From contig OY987238.1 of assembly GCA_963920705.1 (NCBI GenBank), forward strand, positions 11,588,183-11,652,182: a stretch of DNA of 64,000 nucleotides, given 5' to 3'. The DNA comes from Odiellus spinosus (Eukaryota > Arthropoda > Arachnida > Opiliones > Phalangiidae). A model generated the notes under the pieces. The model made no database searches and was not told the origin of the DNA. It worked only from the letters and a program-made list of their open reading frames with translations. The position numbers and the translations under genes were made by a program. Below are positions 889-63,885 of the stretch, one piece after another. Numbering within the stretch: the stretch's first letter is position 1; each line of letters opens with the position of its first letter.

Positions 889-2862
889 ATTTAAAGGGGG
901 AGATTTCCGTTAACCGACCCCCCACTAAAGCGAGTTGAGACCGATCAGTTCATTAGTTTGGTCAAATTAAAATATTTAAAATCCAGATTCCCCATTATAA
1001 AATCCCATAGGGCGCGGATAATGTATTATTTTGAGTATCTAATTCATTCTGACCGGGTTTTTTTCCTAGTAATTAATTACGCAAATTATAATTACGTCGT
1101 TTAAGTGTCTTTTAACGAGAAAAAATCCATTTAAAATCAACCAAATAATTCAAATAAAACATTAATTGTTGGCCCTATGGAGATTAACATGGCAAAATCT
1201 GATTTAAATATTTTTTTTTGACAAAACTAATGAACTGATCGGTCTCAACTCGCTTTAATGGAAATAGGACCCCAAAATCAACTGAAATCCATCAAAAAAA
1301 GTTTCAGATTAGAAACTTTATTTTTGGCCATTTTCAAAAAAACGAAAAAACCAAAAAAAGGGAGAATGGAATTTTGTGATTTTCGTCGAGTTCGAAAATG
1401 TCAAAAATAAAGTTTCGAATCCGGAACTTTTTTTGATGGATTTTGGTTGGTTTTGAGGTCCTATTTCCATTAAAGCGAGTTGAGTCCGATCAGTTCATTA
1501 GTTTTGTCAAATTAAAATATTTAAAATCCAGATTTCCCATTATAAAAACCCATAGGGCGCCGATAATGTATTATTTTGAGTATCTAATTCATTCTGACCG
1601 GGTTTTTTTCCTAGTAATTAGTTACGCAAATTATAATTACGTCGTTTAAGTGTCTTTTAACGAGAAAAAATCCATTTAAAATCAACCAAATAATTGAAAT
1701 AAAACATTAATTGTTGGCCCTATGGAGATTAACATGGCAAAATCTGATTTTAAATATTTTTTTTTGACAAAACTAATGAACTGATCGGTCTCAACTCGCT
1801 TTAATGGAAATAGGACCCCAAAATCAACCGAAATCCATCAAAAAAAGTTTCAGATTAGAAACTTTATTTTTGGCCATTTTCAAAAAAACGAAAAAACCAA
1901 AAAAAGGGAGAATGGAATTTTGTGATTTTCGCCGAGTTCGAAAATGTCAAAAATAAAGTTTCGAATCCGGAACTTTTTTTGATGGATTTCGGTTGGTTTT
2001 GAGGTCCTATTTCCATTAAAGCGAGTTGAGACCGATCAGTTCATTAGTTTTGTCAAAATAAAATATTTAAAATCCAGATTCCCCATTATAAAAACCCATA
2101 GGGCGCCGATAATGTATTATTTTGAGTATCTAATTCATTCTGACCGGGTTTTTTCCTAGTAATTAGTTACGCAAATTATAATTACGTCGTTTAAGTGTCT
2201 TTTAACGAGAAAAAATCCATTTAAAATCAACCAAATAATTGAAATAAAACATTAATTGTTGGCCCTATGGAGATTAACATGGCAAAATCTGATTTTAAAT
2301 ATTTTTTTTTTGACAAAACTAATGAACTGATCGGTCTCAACTCGCTTTAATGGAAATAGGACCCCAAAATCAACCGGAATCTATCAAAAAAAGTTTCAGA
2401 TTAGAAACTTTATTTTTGGCCATTTTCAAAAAAACGAAAAAACGAAAAAAAGGGAGAATGGAATTTTGTGATTTTCGTCGAGTTCGAAAATGTCAAAAAT
2501 AAAGTTTCGAATCCGGAACTTTTTTTGATGGATTTCGGTTGGTTTTGAGGTCCTATTTCCATTAAAGCGAGTTGAGTCCGATCAGTTCATTAGTTTTGTC
2601 AAAATAAAATATTTAAAATCCAGATTCCCCATTATAAAAACCCATAGGGCGCGGATAATGTATTATTTTGAGTATCTAATTCATTCTGACCGGGTTTTTT
2701 CCTAGTAATTAGTTACGCAAATTATAATTACGTCGTTTAAGTGTCTTTTAACGAGAAAAAACCTGGTTTTTATTATTTTTTCTGAACTCCCTAGGTCCTA
2801 AATAGTCTATAACCATCGTTATTTAGTGGGGGGTCGGTTAACGGAAATCTCCCCATTTAAAG
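889..2862. mobile_element. Non-autonomous DNA transposon with 33-bp perfect TIRs and 8-bp target duplication
   Basis: The ends at 897-929 and 2822-2854 are perfect 33-base inverted repeats beginning GGGGAGATTTCC. They are flanked by the 8-base direct repeat ATTTAAAG (889-896 and 2855-2862), which is a target-site duplication. The element between is 1958 bases and has no coding capacity. An 8-base duplication is compatible with hAT, P or Merlin transposases; the GGGG start does not decide between them. Apart from a unique 58-base piece (2764-2821) the interior is the tandem array described separately. Perfect ends and intact duplications suggest a recent insertion. Confidence 0.9.
927..2763. 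repeat. Tandem array (3.4 copies) of a 545-546 bp unit made of two dyads
   Basis: Units start at 927, 1472, 2018 and 2564, giving periods of 545, 546 and 546 bases; the fourth stops near 2763. Copies differ at only a few positions each. Every full unit is two back-to-back inverted repeats. In unit 1 one dyad has arms of about 60 bases at 927 and ending at 1256. The second has arms of about 85 bases starting at 1257 and ending near 1473. The whole array is therefore self-complementary and could fold into large cruciforms. It fills almost all of the transposon and starts directly inside the left TIR. Confidence 0.93.
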
Positions 2863-3919: not shown

Positions 3920-5872
3920 TTAATAGATATCGTCGAGCGAAATAACATTGTCATGGTGTTGTTTCAACTGTTTATCGTGTCCGATGGTCAGCAAGGTAAT
4001 ATTCATGTCCGAACACATGGAGTAAAGTCGCGACTGTATGTCGCTGGAAACGGCACTCAGAGGTTCGTCGACCAGGGCCAACTGGGGTCTGTGACAAAAC
4101 AGGCGCATGAAACAGACCCTTTGCATTTCACCAGGCGACAAAGTGGCGAACCAATTCCAATCAGGCAAGACATCCAGGAACGAGTTGCACGTATGGATGC
4201 TTAACGAATCCAGACGATAGATTAAAGAAGACAAGTCGCATTCATTCAGTAATCTATAGAAGAAAAAAAAAAAGAAGGGCTAATTGATGTTCCATCAAAA
4301 AAGCTGTTAGAAATACCTGGTAATTTCCTCATCACACATTGTCAATTTTAAAAATTCGTCCACTATTTTAGGATAAAAAATTTGTTCCCTCAGAGTGGCA
4401 TTCGGCATGAGAAATGCCTTTTGAGGCAGATAAAATATTTTGGAACAGTCCCCATTAATTGGCAAGTTAAATTTGAAGTTTCCGTTGGAATGTGGCCATA
4501 ATCCCTTTAGGACGCGAAAAATCGACGTTTTTCCAATACCGCTTTTTCCCACAATCAAGCAGTTTTCTTGTTTATGGACGATAAACGATAGAGAGGATGG
4601 AAGTATCGGCGCCTCCTTCCAGGGATGGCAAAAGTTTAAGTTCGTGACTCGAAGTAGAGCTGCTTCGGCTACCTCTACAAAATAAGATTATTAAAAGTTT
4701 ATATTTTCCGCCACGATGAAAACTTCTCAAACCTGGTTCGCCAAAATTATCAAATTCAAAATTAGTATTGTCAAAGCCCTTGTACTTCTCCATTTTCGTC
4801 AATAATTGGGCCACACGATGACTAGTACCGGCTAGTGTGGTAAAATCTTCCGTTAAATTGACCAAGTTGCTAAAACAGGATATCAGGTACATGGTAACGA
4901 ATGTATTCTTGCTTATCAAAGCACTCAAGTCGGCGCTGGTTAAGTTATCGTACATTCCAGTAAAAATGGGTACCGCCAGAACCAAGAAGCTTATAATACT
5001 CCCGAAGTAATTGAACAAATTAACCGAAGTATCCAAGGGGTATTTGCGAAGAAACAGATTCTCTTGAGTATTTATTAATTCTTGTAACTGCTCGTTAGAT
5101 TTTTGATGTTCGATATTTTCTCCATTTTGAAAGGCGATAGCTTCGGAATTCGACCTGACGTGCATATGTTGGTATCGAAAATACCCCTCGCATTTTTCTT
5201 GCAAGTATACCATGGCTACAACGGGTGACATTAGCAGTTTATTTATGAAAGTGCTAAACAGAAAGTAAACGAAGACGCTGAATGGCCCCACCCATCCCGT
5301 GCTGGTGTACGAGGAGTAAGAGTAGTAGGCGATGGTGAACGGTGATATCATCAACGTTGGAAGAACGTTGCTCAGGGTTGCGCATAGTTTGTCAGTATCT
5401 TGAGTGATTCGTTGATCGGGGTTGTCTGTGTACAGTAATTCTTGGTTACGCAACATAGTGTCAGTTTTACCATCTTGGAACCTTAGAACCCACCTATTTG
5501 GTTTTTGTAGCGGACATTGAGGTCGTACTGAACCTTATTGCGGAAGTAATGAAAGTGCAGTTCCTGCGTAAGCCTTAGCCTACAAGTGACGTAGAAAATG
5601 GAAGCCACGTAACTGGAACTGCTTTTGATCAGAGACACGGTCGCGAACAGAATCAAGGATTTAACGGTCAACCAAATGAAACCGTTCAAGTTTTTCTCCC
5701 CTAGAACCTTGTAATATTCGCTGGTGAGCAGTCCCACTCGATAGTAGACATATTCTTGGAGTAATCGGATTAATAACAAGGCTAAAAACAAGTGGAAAAC
5801 CAGTCTGCTTCGCAGTTTGGTACACAAGTAGGCGAATCGTTTGAGGAATTGCCAGTCGAAACGGTACTCCAT
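3920..5872 (-). CDS. ABCD4: ABC transporter subfamily D member 4-like (lysosomal cobalamin exporter)
   Basis: Four exons join in phase: 5872-5494, 5440-4733, 4674-4317 and 4253-3920, with introns of 53, 58 and 63 bases. The product is 592 residues, close to human ABCD4 (606). A six-span membrane domain comes first and carries the DNPDQRITQD motif of subfamily D and the ISPF, STGW, QEKCEG and ISCF blocks that match ABCD4 in particular. The nucleotide-binding domain has Walker A (GKSGIGKTS), a linker peptide (LSPGEMQR), Walker B ending in a catalytic Glu (LALVDEP) and the H-loop His (IGHDK), so it looks active. Known ABCD4 homodimerises in the lysosomal membrane and exports vitamin B12 with LMBD1. 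The 53-base first intron has a weak pyrimidine tract, and its boundaries are chosen to keep the frame. Confidence 0.95.
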
Positions 5873-7505
5873 CTTTCTACGAATACTTAATGCCAGTAAA
5901 ATTATTTTAACGTAAGTATAATTAATTATACTAACTGCTAAGAACTACTTTAGTTTTAAGTTTTCAGTACGTAAAAAGTAAGACTCCGTTTTCTGCTTTG
6001 GTTTATTATTATAGAAAAATAAAATTTTTAAAACATTGCGCCTAAAGGGCAATGAAAAAATAATATCCCACATGCGAGCAATTCAAAAGGATAGGCGGCT
6101 TCTACTAGGTAGTTAAACTTTCCCATAAGATAAACTTCTGTGCACTGTCATTATATAAATTTTATGGGTTATAACAATCATTTCGGCAAAAGGGAGAACC
6201 TAGCTTTAAGCGTGTATGAAACACCCAAACTAATAAGCCGTAAAGTCCGTCTAAATATTCGGAAATTAAAATTTAATCTGATCACGGGTAGATTTATAGT
6301 TTAAACTTCCCGCGGTTTGGCACTTAAATCCCCCATGGACAGAGTCAAGGCTCAGGGTATGTGTATTTCATTATAACATTGATTAGTACTTTATTATTGT
6401 GATTGTCTTATAGATTCTTTAGTTGTATTGTTAATACTAATTTGTGGAATAAGTTTCATTCACTTTCTCTATAAATATTTTTATTACTTAGCCCAGTTCC
6501 ATGTACATACCCTTCTTAATGTACCCTGAGTTCTTGACAGTTCTCTCCCAGCTTAAAGTAACCAGGAATCAAACTATTTATTCGTTTATAAACTAGCTAA
6601 CGGTATTTTTGCATTTTAGAAATTAGTCCAGTCATAAGGAATAATTATGAATAATTTTGAAATGGTTTTTTATCTATAAACTTAAGAGACAACCTTAAAA
6701 GTAATAATTAATTTTTCCAAACCTTGGTAGGCGTTGAATCGATTTACAAGCAGACGACTAGTGACGAACAGCTTATAAGTTGTTTAAAAAAAAAAAAGCC
6801 CGAATCATAACAATAAAAACAAGTTGGGAAACCAAAATATAACCTCCCCGACCCCGACGTTAAGGTAATCTAACCTAACCCTACCTAAAATAAAAGATGA
6901 AAAGAAATGTAGAGTATTGGATGAGTAGAGGAAACAGCGTGCATTTCAATCATTATTCTCTATTTTACGGAGTATAAGTATTTTCCCTTAACCTCAAGGA
7001 TACAGAGAATGCAAAAGAATGTTATGCGTTACCCATAATTATATGCGGCAGGGCGTAGACTCTAATATACACACCAAATGAAATGTCCTGCGTTACCCAT
7101 AATTATATGCGGCATGGCGTAGAGTTCATAATTGACACACCAAATTAAATTTATTTTCTAAATAAATATGTAAAATACATGTTCTTTTAATATAAATTAT
7201 CATTAGAGCATAGGCTGTACTGTGTGATTATCTTTGAGATAATCCACTGATTTGATAAAGACGAAGGATTTAGTCTGGGATGGCAATGAAGACAAGGAAT
7301 TAAAACGACGAAGATTTTGTAGCAAGTTCCTCTTAGACAAACCAAGAAATATTGTAGACTGAATGTTCCATTTACAACCCATTTTCGGTAGATGATCGGC
7401 AATTACTTCCGGTACAGTTTTCGTCTAAAATTCTTGTTTTGACGTGCTAATAGAGGACCATTACTGATATTTTCATCATGCAAGTGATCCCAGTCATTGG
7501 AAGAA
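5873..7505. other. Intergenic, AT-rich; short tandem duplication at 7023-7147
   Basis: No coding sequence is supported between the ABCD4-like start and the small minus-strand gene. At 7023-7147 a block of about 64 bases (core CGTTACCCATAATTATATGC, at 7026 and 7090) is duplicated in tandem with few changes. A run of AACCTAACC-like words lies at about 6865-6890, common in insect intergenic DNA. On the minus strand an open frame from 7570 to a stop at 7403 (56 codons) overlaps the last exon of the small gene in a second frame and is discussed there. Confidence 0.5.
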
Positions 7506-8146: not shown

Positions 8147-8815
8147 CGTGTAAACGTACCTTTATTTAGATTCTTCAATCCACCCCAAGTTTGCAGCAAG
8201 CCTTAGCCTATACTGCCCGTTATACCTTTGCTTTTTGGACTAAATGATATATGGAAAACAGCTTAGCGCGTGTTGCCAACTCAAGCTGGTATTAAACGGT
8301 CACATTTCATTAAATCTTTGTTTAACTAAGAGAAGCACTCGTAAACAATAAACTATACTTTCTCTCTATTAGCTCGAATTCAATGGATATTCCTTATCAT
8401 TCTACTGTTTAAGAAATAAAATTTTTGTTTATCATTTTGAAGCAATTAATAAAAATAGGCTAAGCTTATGATTTCACCCTTTTGTAACCAATTCAGGCAC
8501 CTTACTCTCTATTACTTCATATAATTTATCAATATTTCATTATTTAAATCTGTGTTTAACTAGAGAAACTCTCGTACCGAAAGAAGTCTTATCAAATTTT
8601 GTCAAAGTACCTTTGTCTGTATTAATTCGAATTCAGTGGACGGTGTAAACGCACTTTTATTTAGATTCTTCAATCCACCCCAAGTTTGCAGCAAGACTAA
8701 GCCTATACTGCCCGTTATACCTTTGCTTTTTGGACTAAATGATATATGGAAAACAGCTAAGCGCGTGTTGCCAACTCAAGCTGGTATTAAACGGTCACAT
8801 TTCATTAAATTTTTG
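8147..8815. repeat. Pair of ~170-bp direct repeats, 497 bp apart
   Basis: The block at about 8147-8318 recurs at about 8644-8815 with only a handful of differences; both contain CCACCCCAAGTTTGCAGCAAG and end in CATTTCATTAAAT. A second, shorter and more diverged pair lies between them (around 8320-8395 and 8556-8640). The layout is that of a short element bounded by direct repeats or of a segmental duplication. I see no coding sequence in it and cannot name a family. Confidence 0.75.
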
Positions 8816-9990: not shown

Positions 9991-12229
9991 ATGTCCGTTG
10001 AATCTGCAACCGAATTATCCGCACCACTGTTTCGTGATTTAAATCCCGATGACTCGGAGTCCAATATTACTGAAATTCAAAGCTTATGCCTTCGATGTGG
10101 TGAAGATGTAAGTGTCAAATTTTGATTTTATATTTGAGTTATTTAAACGTATATAAGTCTATGTTTTTTATAGGGGACCACAAAACTGTTGCTCACAAAA
10201 ATTCCATTCTACAAGGAGGTAGTGCTTATGTCATTTTTTTGTCCACACTGTGAATGGTCCAATAATGAGCTACAACCGGCGGGAAAAATGCAAGAAGAAG
10301 GAGTCAAATTTGAATTGAGTGTCAAGTGTCTAAAAGTATTGGCTATGATCACAAATATAACGTAAATTGCTGTTTATAAAAGATAATTATCCATTTTACA
10401 TTGGTTTTTAGGATCTATCGAGACAAATTGTCAAAACTGAATGGGCAACTGTTAAGATACCGGAACTAGAATTTGAAATACCTCCTAGAACTCAGGAAGG
10501 GGGTAAGATATGCTTTTATTTCACCGGTTGCAAATGGCAACTTAAAAGAAATAGCGACTATTCCTAGTATTTTCTTTCTTTAGCCATATCAACGATAGAA
10601 GGGATTATTCAAAGAGCAATTGAGGGATTAATGCAGAGAGTTGATACCTTAAGAAAAGTAAAATATTCAATTTACTACTCATTTTAATTTTTATTATATC
10701 TTTTGTATAATTAATACCGTTCATTAGGAAGCTGAAGAAGATAGTCTCGAAAAGTTGTTAGACTTCGTGAAAGAATTAAATCAGTTACTCACCGGAGAGA
10801 AACCTTTCTTATTTGTAAGAAAATTTGTCTTATTCTAAATACTTCTTAACATTCTGGAATAATTTGGATACTAATTTATTCTTTAGATTTTGAACGATCC
10901 GTCTGGGAACAGTTTTTTGGAAAATCTGTATCCTAAGATTGTGCAACTAACATTTTTTTCATTCTGTAGCGTTATATTTTTTCCTATACGAGGCCTTATA
11001 AAATAGTTTAGCACCCCAAAAAGACCCTCAACTTATCATTACTCACTACACCAGGACAAAGGAAGAGGATCGGTTTCTAGGAATTTTTGTAAGATTATAA
11101 TAAGTCTGGCAACGTAGTTACTTGTTGATATAATATAACGGGCATTTAAGTTTGTTTTTCAAATCTCCAGGAGCCGGAAGAACCTGAAGTGGATACTGAA
11201 TTGAAACTTAACGATGAAGTGCTTAAGTTTCAAACAAATTGTCCTTATTGTAACGTACCATGTCATACAAACATGAAAGTAACTCGTATCCTTTTAAATT
11301 AAGATTGCCTTAAGTTTCTCAAAAAAAAAAAAAAAGTTTAAAAAAGGTTAAATTTGTCTTAACAAATGTTTTAGAGATTCCAAATTTCAAGGAAGTGATA
11401 ATTATGGCAACAAATTGCTCATCTTGCGGTCATAGAACTAATGAAGTGAAGAGTGGCGGTGGAACTGAACCATTTGGTACCAGAATCACATTCAAACTTG
11501 AAAATGAAAGAGATTTGACCAGAGATGTTTTAAAAGTACTCTTACTTCGTTTTTTAAATTAAATTTATGGTATGTTAAAAGTTGTTTAACTTTTTTTAGT
11601 CCGAGACTTGTAGCATCGCCATTCCAGATATAGAACTCGAAGTTGGTTCCCATGCCTTGGGAGGTAGATTTACGACGGTAGAAGGACTTCTTGAAAACTT
11701 TAAAGAACAGGTAAAACTATTGTATCATAACTTTCATTTTCTTATATCCAGTTAGATATTTGCAACTATAAGGAAATAGGAATATAACTAAATTGGTTTT
11801 TTCGACCTCCCAGAATTTCTATATAACAAGATTTTAGCGTAATATAAGGTGGTTTGTTTTAAAAACCCATATATTTCTTTGCAGCTTACTTCCCAGAACG
11901 TCTTAATTCAAGGTGACAGCGCAGACAGCGAAAGTAGAAGAAAGATGGATGAATTTCTACAAAAGGTTGATGACATTGCTCAAGGAAAACTAAAAGTTAC
12001 TATGGTTCTCGATGATCCGTGTGGAAATAGTTATATTGAGGTTAGTTAATATATTAGTTTCGTAGATTTATACCTAATAATCATTAATTTAACTAATATA
12101 ACATTTTTACAGAATATTTGCGCACCGGATTTGGATCCTCAACTTACAATTGAAAAATATACCAGAACTTTTGAACAGAACGAAGAACTGGGATTTAACG
12201 ATATGAAAACTGAGGAATACGCTAGTTGA
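9991..12229 (+). CDS. ZPR1: Zinc finger protein ZPR1
   Basis: Twelve exons join in phase: 9991-10107, 10174-10335, 10412-10502, 10584-10657, 10728-10814, 10887-10927, 11007-11088, 11171-11285, 11375-11535, 11600-11710, 11885-12040 and 12113-12229. They encode 437 residues (human 459). The two ZPR1 modules are plain: CLRCGEDG with [10 protein letters not shown] near residues 33-70, and CPYCNVPC with [18 protein letters not shown] in the second half. Each zinc finger is followed by its alpha-helical/beta domain, including [10 protein letters not shown] and [10 protein letters not shown]. The C-terminus keeps [15 protein letters not shown]1 is an essential protein that binds eEF1A and SMN complexes and shuttles between cytoplasm and nucleus. 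All introns have GT-AG ends. Nothing is missing. Confidence 0.97.
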
Positions 12230-13737: not shown

Positions 13738-14450
13738 TATACATTTTTCATTGACTGAGCTCGAAATCGGTTCGAACATTTGAGTGTAGTTGTAATGGTA
13801 TTGCAAAAACAGACTTTAGTCACATTTTAATTTTTATTCTTCCCAAAACTGGCAATTTTGACATTTGGAGAAAATTTATAATTTAGTGTTGGTTCACTTA
13901 TATTAAAAGATAGATGGCGCTTGTGACGTACGTTTTGTCGTGAAGACTTGAATTAAGAGCAACTTGGTCTATTCGAAACACGTGAAAGCTCCTATTAAAT
14001 TTGACTTTTATTTATTTTCTTAAGCGTTTAATTTAACGCATTGCGTTTCGTCATAAACCGAAATCCACCAAACAATGTTCCAGCCTCGAAACATATGTTA
14101 TAACAAATGTTAATAAATCAAAACACATTGAAGTAAGCCTTCTTTAAAGCAGACGCAAAAGCAGAACATCTTAAACAGATAAATTAGAGGTACGGAAATA
14201 AGCTTTGGTTATTAAACAGCTTTCAAATTCAAATTGTCCAATTAATTTTCAGGCTGGGGTTAGAGGTTATATTTCGCCAAGGCTCGTAGTCATTGAGTAA
14301 CAATAGGCAAATGGCCGAGAAGTGCGTAGTTTTCGTTTATATAATTTTGAATTCATAACTTTGTTGTTAATTAAACAATTAATTGAAGTTTAAATTTAAA
14401 TTGGTACAATGAATTCATGTTAGTGAGTCTAGTAGCTACAGTTTGTATCA
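13738..14450. other. Intergenic; probable promoter and first leader exon of EI24
   Basis: No gene is supported in 13738-14300. A donor-like A|GTAAGT at about 14451 and an acceptor TTTTCAG at 14980 would make a spliced leader for EI24, with transcription starting somewhere between 14280 and 14440. This is inference from splice-site words only. Confidence 0.35.
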
Positions 14451-15054: not shown

Positions 15055-17287
15055 CCTCAAAGTAAGTTGACAACCTATAAAGTGTGTAAATGAGTAATTT
15101 TGAGAATGGTTATTTTGCTAAAATTAGATTTTTACAAACAGTTTCGATTTTAATAAATTATCCATTGCAGCTTATTGTGATTGGAATAGCCGTTGGTATC
15201 AGAGATGCGATATTGGGGATCGCAGCCATTTATCATCTGGACAAAGCTAGATTAGAATTCTCAGTTGATAAAAGTTCCTTGGGGAAGGATCTTACACAAC
15301 CGGAGACTGTCCTCTCAAAGAGAAGAACGCAAGCTGGAGTTCCTAAACCTATTAATAAAAGAGAGTGAGTTTTATCTTTGATAAAATTCATTATTTTAAA
15401 TAAAATCTATTTAAACTTTGATAGAAATCCAAAAATAGTTCATCGAATTTTACAGTGCTGTGCCTTAAATGGTGGGGTTTTTTGGGTAAATAAACTTTAA
15501 GTCAGGCTAAATTATGAAAATCAGAGTATTTCATTTAGGTTACTCTATTTTTAGCTTAGCATATTTGTATTTCATCACGGAGTCCTGCCTTGTCTTCAGG
15601 CTTTAATGGGAACATTGTTTGGTTCCACCCCTGGTCTTTCTACTTTCGTTTGGTCATGGATGAGACCCGTTCTTCTATTTACGTTCAGCGCTCTCTGGGT
15701 TATACCACTTTTTTTACTAAGCAGAGTTGTCAATAGTTTGTGGTTCCAGGATATAGCAGACTCTGCTTATCGTAACCTACGAGGTCGCCCTCAATTTCTT
15801 TCTAGTATCAGCAAATTAGTCGCTGACGCGCTATTTAGCGTTTTAATACAAGCGCTCTTCCTATTGCAGGTCAGCCGCTTTTGTTTCCTTTTTGAATAAT
15901 ATAATTTTGGGTTTTAATATCACGTGTTAAACTCATATATTAAGGTTTCCTTGCAGAGTATGTTTGTAAGCCTTTTGCCGATAGCTCCATTTGGAGATAT
16001 TATAAGCATTGTCCATTTGTGCCTACTTTACTCGCTTTACGCGTTTGAATACAAATGGTTTAATATGGGTAAGATAGGCTTTTTGGGTTTTACAGTAAAA
16101 ACCACATTATAATGAAACGTTTTTATTTTTTTTTATCGTAATTTGACTGATACCGATATTGCAAATTTTCTTTTTCCCAAGAGTTTCTTTATAATGACGT
16201 TTTACTCTATCAATATTTTATTCCAGACTTAACATAAAAATATCTATTTGTAGGATGGGAGCTACATAAGCGATTGTCTTTCATAGAACACAACTGGCCT
16301 TATTTTGTAGGATTTGGGATGCCACTAGCAATATTAACGGCGCTTCCAACATCTTATTTCATCAGGTTTGATCTTGTGTTTTTGATAATTTTTGTTTTTA
16401 ATAATTTATATTTTTTTCTTCGGTAGTGGTTGTGTATTTTCTATTCTGTTTCCTCTGTTCATAATTAGTGGAAATGAAGCCACTCCTATGACAGGAACAT
16501 GGTACGGAATTTAATACTATTTCATTGGATTGTGTTTAACTGCCATAAACGGCTGAGGGAAGTGTAATATATAACTTGTAGACAAGCCAGGGAAGTTGAT
16601 AAGGTCAAAAGGTCGTAGACTATTATGGGAAGTTGAATAGTTAGTCTAAATTTCATAGACCATTTTGAGAAGTTGATTAGTAGGTCTGAAGGTCATTATA
16701 GTAGGCCGAAAGTTATTCAATGACCTGGGAGTGTTGAATACTAGATCAAAATATCATATACGTTTGTGGGAAGGTGAATAATACGTCAGAAGGTCATTGA
16801 GGATTCAGGGAACTTGAATAGCAGCGCAAAAGGTCATAGACGCCTGTGGGAAAGTTGAATAGTAGGACTAAGTGTCATTAAAGACTGCGGGAAGTTGAAA
16901 AAGGCAAGAAAATGGCTTAAGTTTAGTATAGTCGTTGCAAATTTTCATAGAAATATTTCTATTATAGCATCTACGGTGTACAGTAGTGGATAATACTACT
17001 TCTATTTCAGTGAATATCCATTGCAGCTTTTTTCACCAGTCGTGTGTCTTTCAAACACGATATTCCATCGAACGATAGGACCGAGTGTCAGTGCCAGTAG
17101 TAGCCGTCAAAGTTTGTCCACACCCACTCCACCCATTACACCTACGAGAGACACTCTCAAACTGAAAAGACCTCGCAGCCATCTCTCTCTCCATTCCTCC
17201 CCTTCATCCAACTCATCCTCGAGAGGCAGAAAAGAGAGACCTACCAGTAGTAGGCGAGGTTCTAGTCTAACGAAAGACAATTTTTAA
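15047..17287 (+). CDS. EI24: EI24 (etoposide-induced 2.4 / PIG8) ER membrane protein
   Basis: Eight coding exons join in phase: 15047-15061, 15171-15364, 15425-15485, 15555-15869, 15957-16068, 16254-16365, 16427-16501 and 17011-17287, for 386 residues. The first exon encodes only MDSLK. The protein follows EI24 throughout: GIRDAILGI, the [10 protein letters not shown] segment, [76 protein letters not shown] and the final hydrophobic [10 protein letters not shown]. Several membrane helices are evident. The family acts in the ER membrane in autophagy and p53-dependent growth control. The C-terminal tail after about residue 300 is a Ser/Pro/Arg-rich low-complexity stretch, longer than in the human protein (340-358 residues). 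Confidence 0.95.
16588..16910. repeat. Degenerate minisatellite in EI24 intron 7
   Basis: Diverged copies of a unit like GGGAAGTTGAATAGTAGGTC...AAGGTCATAGAC repeat every 40-60 bases through the intron between coding exons 7 and 8. Related words (AAGGTCATGG) recur in minisatellites at 42.2 and 46.8 kb. Confidence 0.7.

Positions 17288-20291: not shown

Positions 20292-63885
<43,594 letters not shown>

Follow-up and report, generated by a model that had tools for sequence, protein, structure and literature searches.

A Putative Transposon in Odiellus spinosus with an Interior Occupied Almost Entirely by a Tandem Array of Self-Complementary Units

Introduction

DNA transposons that carry tandem repeats are a published kind, exemplified by Tetris, Xmix/Xstir, miDNA4, and Merlin elements with internal repeats. 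These systems are summarized here from the available portions of the sources cited. Tetris, from Drosophila virilis, is a non-autonomous foldback element with target duplications of 8–9 bp in three complete copies. The repeat is present as 3 units in one allele and 4 in another, and as free arrays it reaches up to 66 units (PMC4079207). Whether foldback-like elements are especially prone to yield satellites is left open in the available part of that report (PMC4079207). Xmix of Xenopus is a MITE in which an internal segment has been amplified as tandem repeats, the Xstir repeats (PMC12628747, PMC9659126, PMC6004289). Xmix itself is assigned to T2-MITE; its target site is TTAA, its ends are AGGRR, and it is presumed to belong to Kolobok (PMC6004289). 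miDNA4 of Xenopus tropicalis, which is of the Tc1/mariner type, is a MITE with one or a variable number of satellite monomers (PMC12628747, PMC9659126). Merlin elements have target duplications of 8–9 bp and inverted ends of 24–462 bp, and several contain internal tandem repeats. Of the two copies of the Merlin family Sy.k_F2, one carries 4 units of a 163-bp repeat and the other carries 3, and the authors suggest that such repeat carriers could spread proto-satellites (PMC8101967).

The element described here lies in a 64-kb window, which is the whole stretch of Odiellus spinosus DNA that was analyzed and the frame for all coordinates below. Like Tetris, it is a probable non-autonomous element of foldback structure without conserved ORFs, with a target duplication in the 8-bp range and internal tandem repeats. 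In Tetris, however, the repeats (~220 bp) are found within inverted ends as long as 1,735 bp that are parted by a middle domain, whereas the 33-nt ends of the present element flank a single central array of self-complementary units. As in Xmix and Xstir, an internal segment is present as amplified tandem repeats; unlike Xmix, the element has an 8-nt duplication and GGGG ends. It shares with Merlin a GG start, an 8-nt duplication, and internal tandem repeats, a likeness drawn from features rather than from a comparison of end sequences. The Merlin repeat families have a conserved DDE motif, whereas the present element has no transposase and its unit is larger and self-complementary. It is like miDNA4 in carrying repeated monomers inside a MITE-like element, although a self-complementary monomer is not described for miDNA4 in the available parts of its sources. 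Two features of the present element look less common: a single array takes up nearly all of its interior, and each unit contains two dyads. This exact layout, an array-filled interior with a two-dyad unit, was not found in the available text of the open-licence literature searched.

Results and Discussion

The element is 1958 nt long (897–2854), and its inverted ends pair at 33 of 33 positions (Table 1). The octamers on either side of it are both ATTTAAAG and agree at all 8 positions. The first-pass annotation had proposed a 1958-base element with perfect 33-base ends and an intact 8-base target duplication, and all of these features were confirmed. The end sequence, GGGGAGATTT, starts with GG. 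A scan of the window with this 33-mer, allowing up to 3 mismatches, returned 2 places, both of them element termini; at least 2 such matches were obtained in 0 of 100 shuffles. The 60 nt that precede the right inverted repeat gave chance-level matches only, both against the array and against the window to the right of the element. A reading of this stretch as a unit remnant was rejected, its best match to the array having an E value of 3.7. Within the element, no stop-to-stop frame exceeds 70 aa, which is the length of the longest. The element lies outside the recognized coding pieces of the window, about 1.07 kb past the end of an ABC transporter frame.

Table 1. Features of the element and its array (window coordinates).
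Feature	Position	Strand	Evidence or remark
Left target-site duplication, ATTTAAAG	889–896	.	Same as 2855–2862
Left terminal inverted repeat, 33 nt, GGGG start	897–929	+	33/33 versus reverse complement of 2822–2854
Unit 1, 545 nt, first 3 nt inside left inverted repeat	927–1471	+	Unit alignment
Unit 2, 546 nt	1472–2017	+	98.2% to unit 1, 98.7% to unit 3
Example of a long foldback, centered near 1910	1741–2086	+	RNA fold −203.4 kcal/mol; 0/100 shuffles as good
Unit 3, 546 nt	2018–2563	+	98.0% to unit 1
Unit 4, truncated, 198 nt	2564–2761	+	99.0% to unit 3 over 198 nt
Subterminal non-array stretch, 60 nt	2762–2821	+	Weak, chance-level matches only
Right terminal inverted repeat, 33 nt	2822–2854	−	33/33 versus reverse complement of 897–929; window scan
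Right target-site duplication, ATTTAAAG	2855–2862	.	Same as 889–896

The tandem array occupies 1835 nt (927–2761), which corresponds to 3.36 periods of 546 nt and 93.7% of the element. Each of its four units starts with AAAGCGAG. Pairwise identity between units is 97.5–99.0% (6 pairs, gap columns left out), and the unit alignment contains 17 variable columns, 3 of them with gaps. The earlier description of 3.4 near-identical 546-base units therefore holds. It had also placed the start of the array immediately inside the left end, and the first 3 nt of the array indeed overlap the inverted repeat on that side, at its inner end. This left edge resembles a joint between units, with CCACTAAA in the end versus CCATTAAA at the joints. 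A derivation of the unit joint from the inverted end was considered on the basis of the common string ATTTCC[G/A]TTAA (10 of 11 positions) and is not claimed, the match having an E value of ~0.24 in a tiny search space. On the right, the array stops mid-unit, and other sequence fills the interval before the inverted end. The array does not appear in the list from Tandem Repeats Finder, whose longest period of 500 is below that of the 546-nt unit. No other array of this unit was found within the 64-kb window, where the best unit match outside the element is 37 nt at 84% identity.

The internal structure of the unit was examined with an inverted-repeat tool and by local alignment. Two dyad centers are found per 546-nt period, one series near 1091, 1637, and 2183 and the other near 1364, 1910, and 2456. 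The two inverted repeats per unit reported in the first-pass annotation are thus recovered as two dyads per period, with arms that are imperfect. The array is a series of half-units of ~273 nt in alternating orientation, in which each half-unit partners both of its neighbors. Among the six full half-units, identity is 98.2–99.3% within an orientation versus 73–74% between orientations. For half-units A2 and B2, identity is 92–100% near the hairpin joint, over three successive windows of 25 columns, and drops to ~50% at both dyad centers.

In the foldback centered near 1910, the inverted arms at 1729–1902 and 1918–2091 are 84% complementary. A 346-nt piece folded as RNA gives −203.4 kcal/mol versus a shuffle mean of −66.3 (z = −26.8), a value reached by 0 of 100 shuffles. 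One 546-nt unit folded as DNA gives −154.3 versus a shuffle mean of −53.5 (z = −24.0), again reached by 0 of 100 shuffles. It had been suggested that the element would be a strong cruciform former and a source of hairpin RNA. The predicted folding goes far beyond that of shuffled sequences and to this extent agrees with the suggestion, but the values describe a computed hairpin-forming potential only.

The distribution of differences among half-units bears on the order of events. Across 268 gap-free columns of the six full half-units, 193 are invariant, 64 are orientation-specific and fixed, and 11 vary among units. Because the 64 differences between the arms are common to all three full units, the simplest reading is that the foldback formed first and was amplified in tandem later. 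These common differences would predate the tandem copies, or conversion among units would have spread them. The element is a clean example of a case whose order of events, foldback and then tandem, is readable from sequence. The first-pass proposal of a foldback unit amplified within a mobile element gains support as to the order, from 64 fixed versus 11 variable columns, whereas mobility is suggested by the inverted ends and the duplicated target site of a single copy, with neither a second insertion nor an empty site seen.

Differences among units also suggest that the units have not evolved independently. At four columns the four units are divided 2:2, and all four combinations occur in 5 of the 6 column pairs, the remaining pair being without conflict; one of the four columns is a difference in the length of a T run. 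These conflicting site patterns point to exchange or conversion between units, and recurrent mutation is a possible source of them given only four sites. Over 164 columns, the partial half-unit at the far left shows 5–6 differences from its three fellows, whereas the fellows differ from each other at 2–3. This excess would fit a position at the edge of an exchanging array. An attempt to date the insertion relative to the amplification from the identity of the ends was dropped for want of power: at 1.0–2.5% divergence, the range seen among units, the chance of 0 differences in 33 nt is 0.72–0.43.

Taken together, these data make it probable that the element is a non-autonomous, MITE-like terminal-inverted-repeat transposon in which an internal foldback formed, its arms diverged, and the foldback was then amplified in tandem to 3.4 copies. 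A transposase acting in trans, possibly of the Merlin or Mutator type, would move the element and generate the 8-nt target duplications. The internal foldback would consist of two abutting hairpins. After its formation and the divergence of its arms, the 546-nt foldback would have been amplified, most likely through replication slippage at the hairpins or unequal exchange between units, and further exchange between units would have followed. This reading is in line with published relatives, the Tetris alleles having 3 and 4 units and the copies of Merlin Sy.k_F2 having 4 and 3. The direct route from transposon to satellite DNA suggested in the first-pass annotation would require other insertions, variation in unit number, and free arrays. 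A further-reaching proposal would make the element a live intermediate of satellite birth, with self-complementarity as the driver of amplification: hairpins would stall replication, the unit number would shift at or between transpositions, and the 546-nt unit would also occur in the genome as free arrays and give rise to long dsRNA; we regard this as quite doubtful. Should other insertions with differing unit counts exist, the family could be used to ask if self-complementary units are amplified more easily than plain units.

The foldback itself could have come from two separate MITEs, hairpins of ~330 nt and ~215 nt that abutted at the palindrome TTAA and were later duplicated in tandem. We give this origin a modest chance; it differs from the preferred explanation only in how the foldback arose, and both may hold together. 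The high arm identity around the joint of A2 and B2 (92–100%) and its fall at the centers (~50%) look as if two foldback termini had met there, and TTAA is present at the joints within the array. However, TTAA is self-complementary and so carries little weight as a target duplication at a dyad-symmetric joint. Neither hairpin was found alone in the 64-kb window, and the element's left-end joint has CTAA in place of TTAA.

It is unlikely, in our judgment, that the element instead captured a piece of a pre-existing satellite with a self-complementary monomer, such that the inverted ends merely flank it. An array that accounts for 94% of the element and breaks off within a unit, at 2761, does resemble a cut-out piece, and capture of a tandem repeat that already existed has been proposed for miDNA4 of Xenopus, according to the available part of a review (PMC12628747). 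The array nevertheless sets in at the inner margin of the left end with the joint-like CCACTAAA, although joining through so short a match would also suit capture by microhomology, which makes the argument from the joint a weak one. Unit traces elsewhere in the window are weak and at most 37 nt long, 64 kb being little sequence in which to meet a satellite. Short tandem arrays are also liable to collapse or expansion in assembly, and the number of units could be an artefact of this kind. We consider this very improbable for the present array, since its units are distinct at 17 variable columns (3 gapped), which is not what mere duplication in assembly would produce, and the window contains no N.

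Assignment to a superfamily was approached through the ends, the target duplication, and a domain scan. Inverted ends that match at 33/33 and a target duplication that matches at 8/8 agree with a terminal-inverted-repeat (class II) transposon, and the lack of a transposase gene (longest frame, 70 aa) agrees with a MITE or other non-autonomous element. MITEs are given as 80–500 bp (PMC2874221), and the present element, at 1958 nt, is longer. Merlin ends begin with GG, and the target duplication is 8 or 9 bp (PMC8101967). The GG start and 8-nt duplication found here, both weak indicators, would fit Merlin, and Mutator also remains compatible. The domain scan covered a selection of 16 among the 111 window frames with a length of 65 aa or more, and none of the 16 showed DDE_Tnp_IS1595, the transposase expected of an autonomous Merlin copy. 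No Merlin end sequences for comparison are given in the available portions of PMC3212995, PMC10294476, and PMC2874221. Tetris was placed in Mutator on the basis of duplications of 8–10 bp and earlier suggestions (PMC4079207). The 8-nt duplication of the present element lies within this range, but its ends are just 33 nt long and its foldback is internal. hAT elements have an 8-bp duplication and inverted ends of 5–27 bp (PMC2874221). Here the 8-nt duplication fits, whereas the 33-nt ends fall outside that range. What we take to be the usual hAT terminal motif is absent from the ends of the element.

Exact patterns of 20–40 bases gave 0 matches in viral contigs and in (prokaryotic) genome contigs, and blastn of phages and plasmids likewise gave 0 matches; a eukaryotic element is hardly expected in these collections. 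When end and unit sequences were sought in the available published text, one 13-mer matched, in two papers, both on Brachypodium, that appeared unrelated.

In the remainder of the window, 6 of the 16 scanned frames had no domain match. The split gene pieces recognized there suggest a eukaryotic, probably animal, source. ABC_membrane_2 and ABC_tran matches occur in overlapping or neighboring frames on the minus strand at 3923–5944, which we take to be an ABCD4-like transporter. ZPR1 domains are found at 11314–12046 and IQ motifs at 62887–63487, and a weak EI24 match at 15555–15896 scores 17.2 bits, below the cut-off of 32. A tRNA scan of the window with bacterial settings and an Rfam scan returned nothing.

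Several other repeats are present in the window. At 14053–14092, a weak match (37 nt, 84%) to the shorter of the unit's two hairpins may be due to chance. Another self-complementary repeat is present as two copies in opposite orientation, at 25789–26329 and 28460–29016, that are 88% identical and whose longest inner arms are 94% and 91% complementary. A larger element-like structure at 28224–29782 has inverted arms of 47, 89, and 51 nt that are 80–89% complementary; it encloses the copy at 28460–29016, possibly as a nested insertion. A dispersed repeat is represented by at least four related pieces (21782–22055, 38710–38972, 51357–51495, and 59126–59279), with 82–89% identity in the listed pairs. 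A 173-nt direct repeat at 8148–8320 and 8643–8815 is 97% identical, with 495 nt from start to start. A degenerate tandem array at 44764–45080 has periods near 31, 59, 90, and 121 nt, and a tandem array at 42149–42329 has a period of ~38–39 nt and 3.2–4.6 units, depending on the row.
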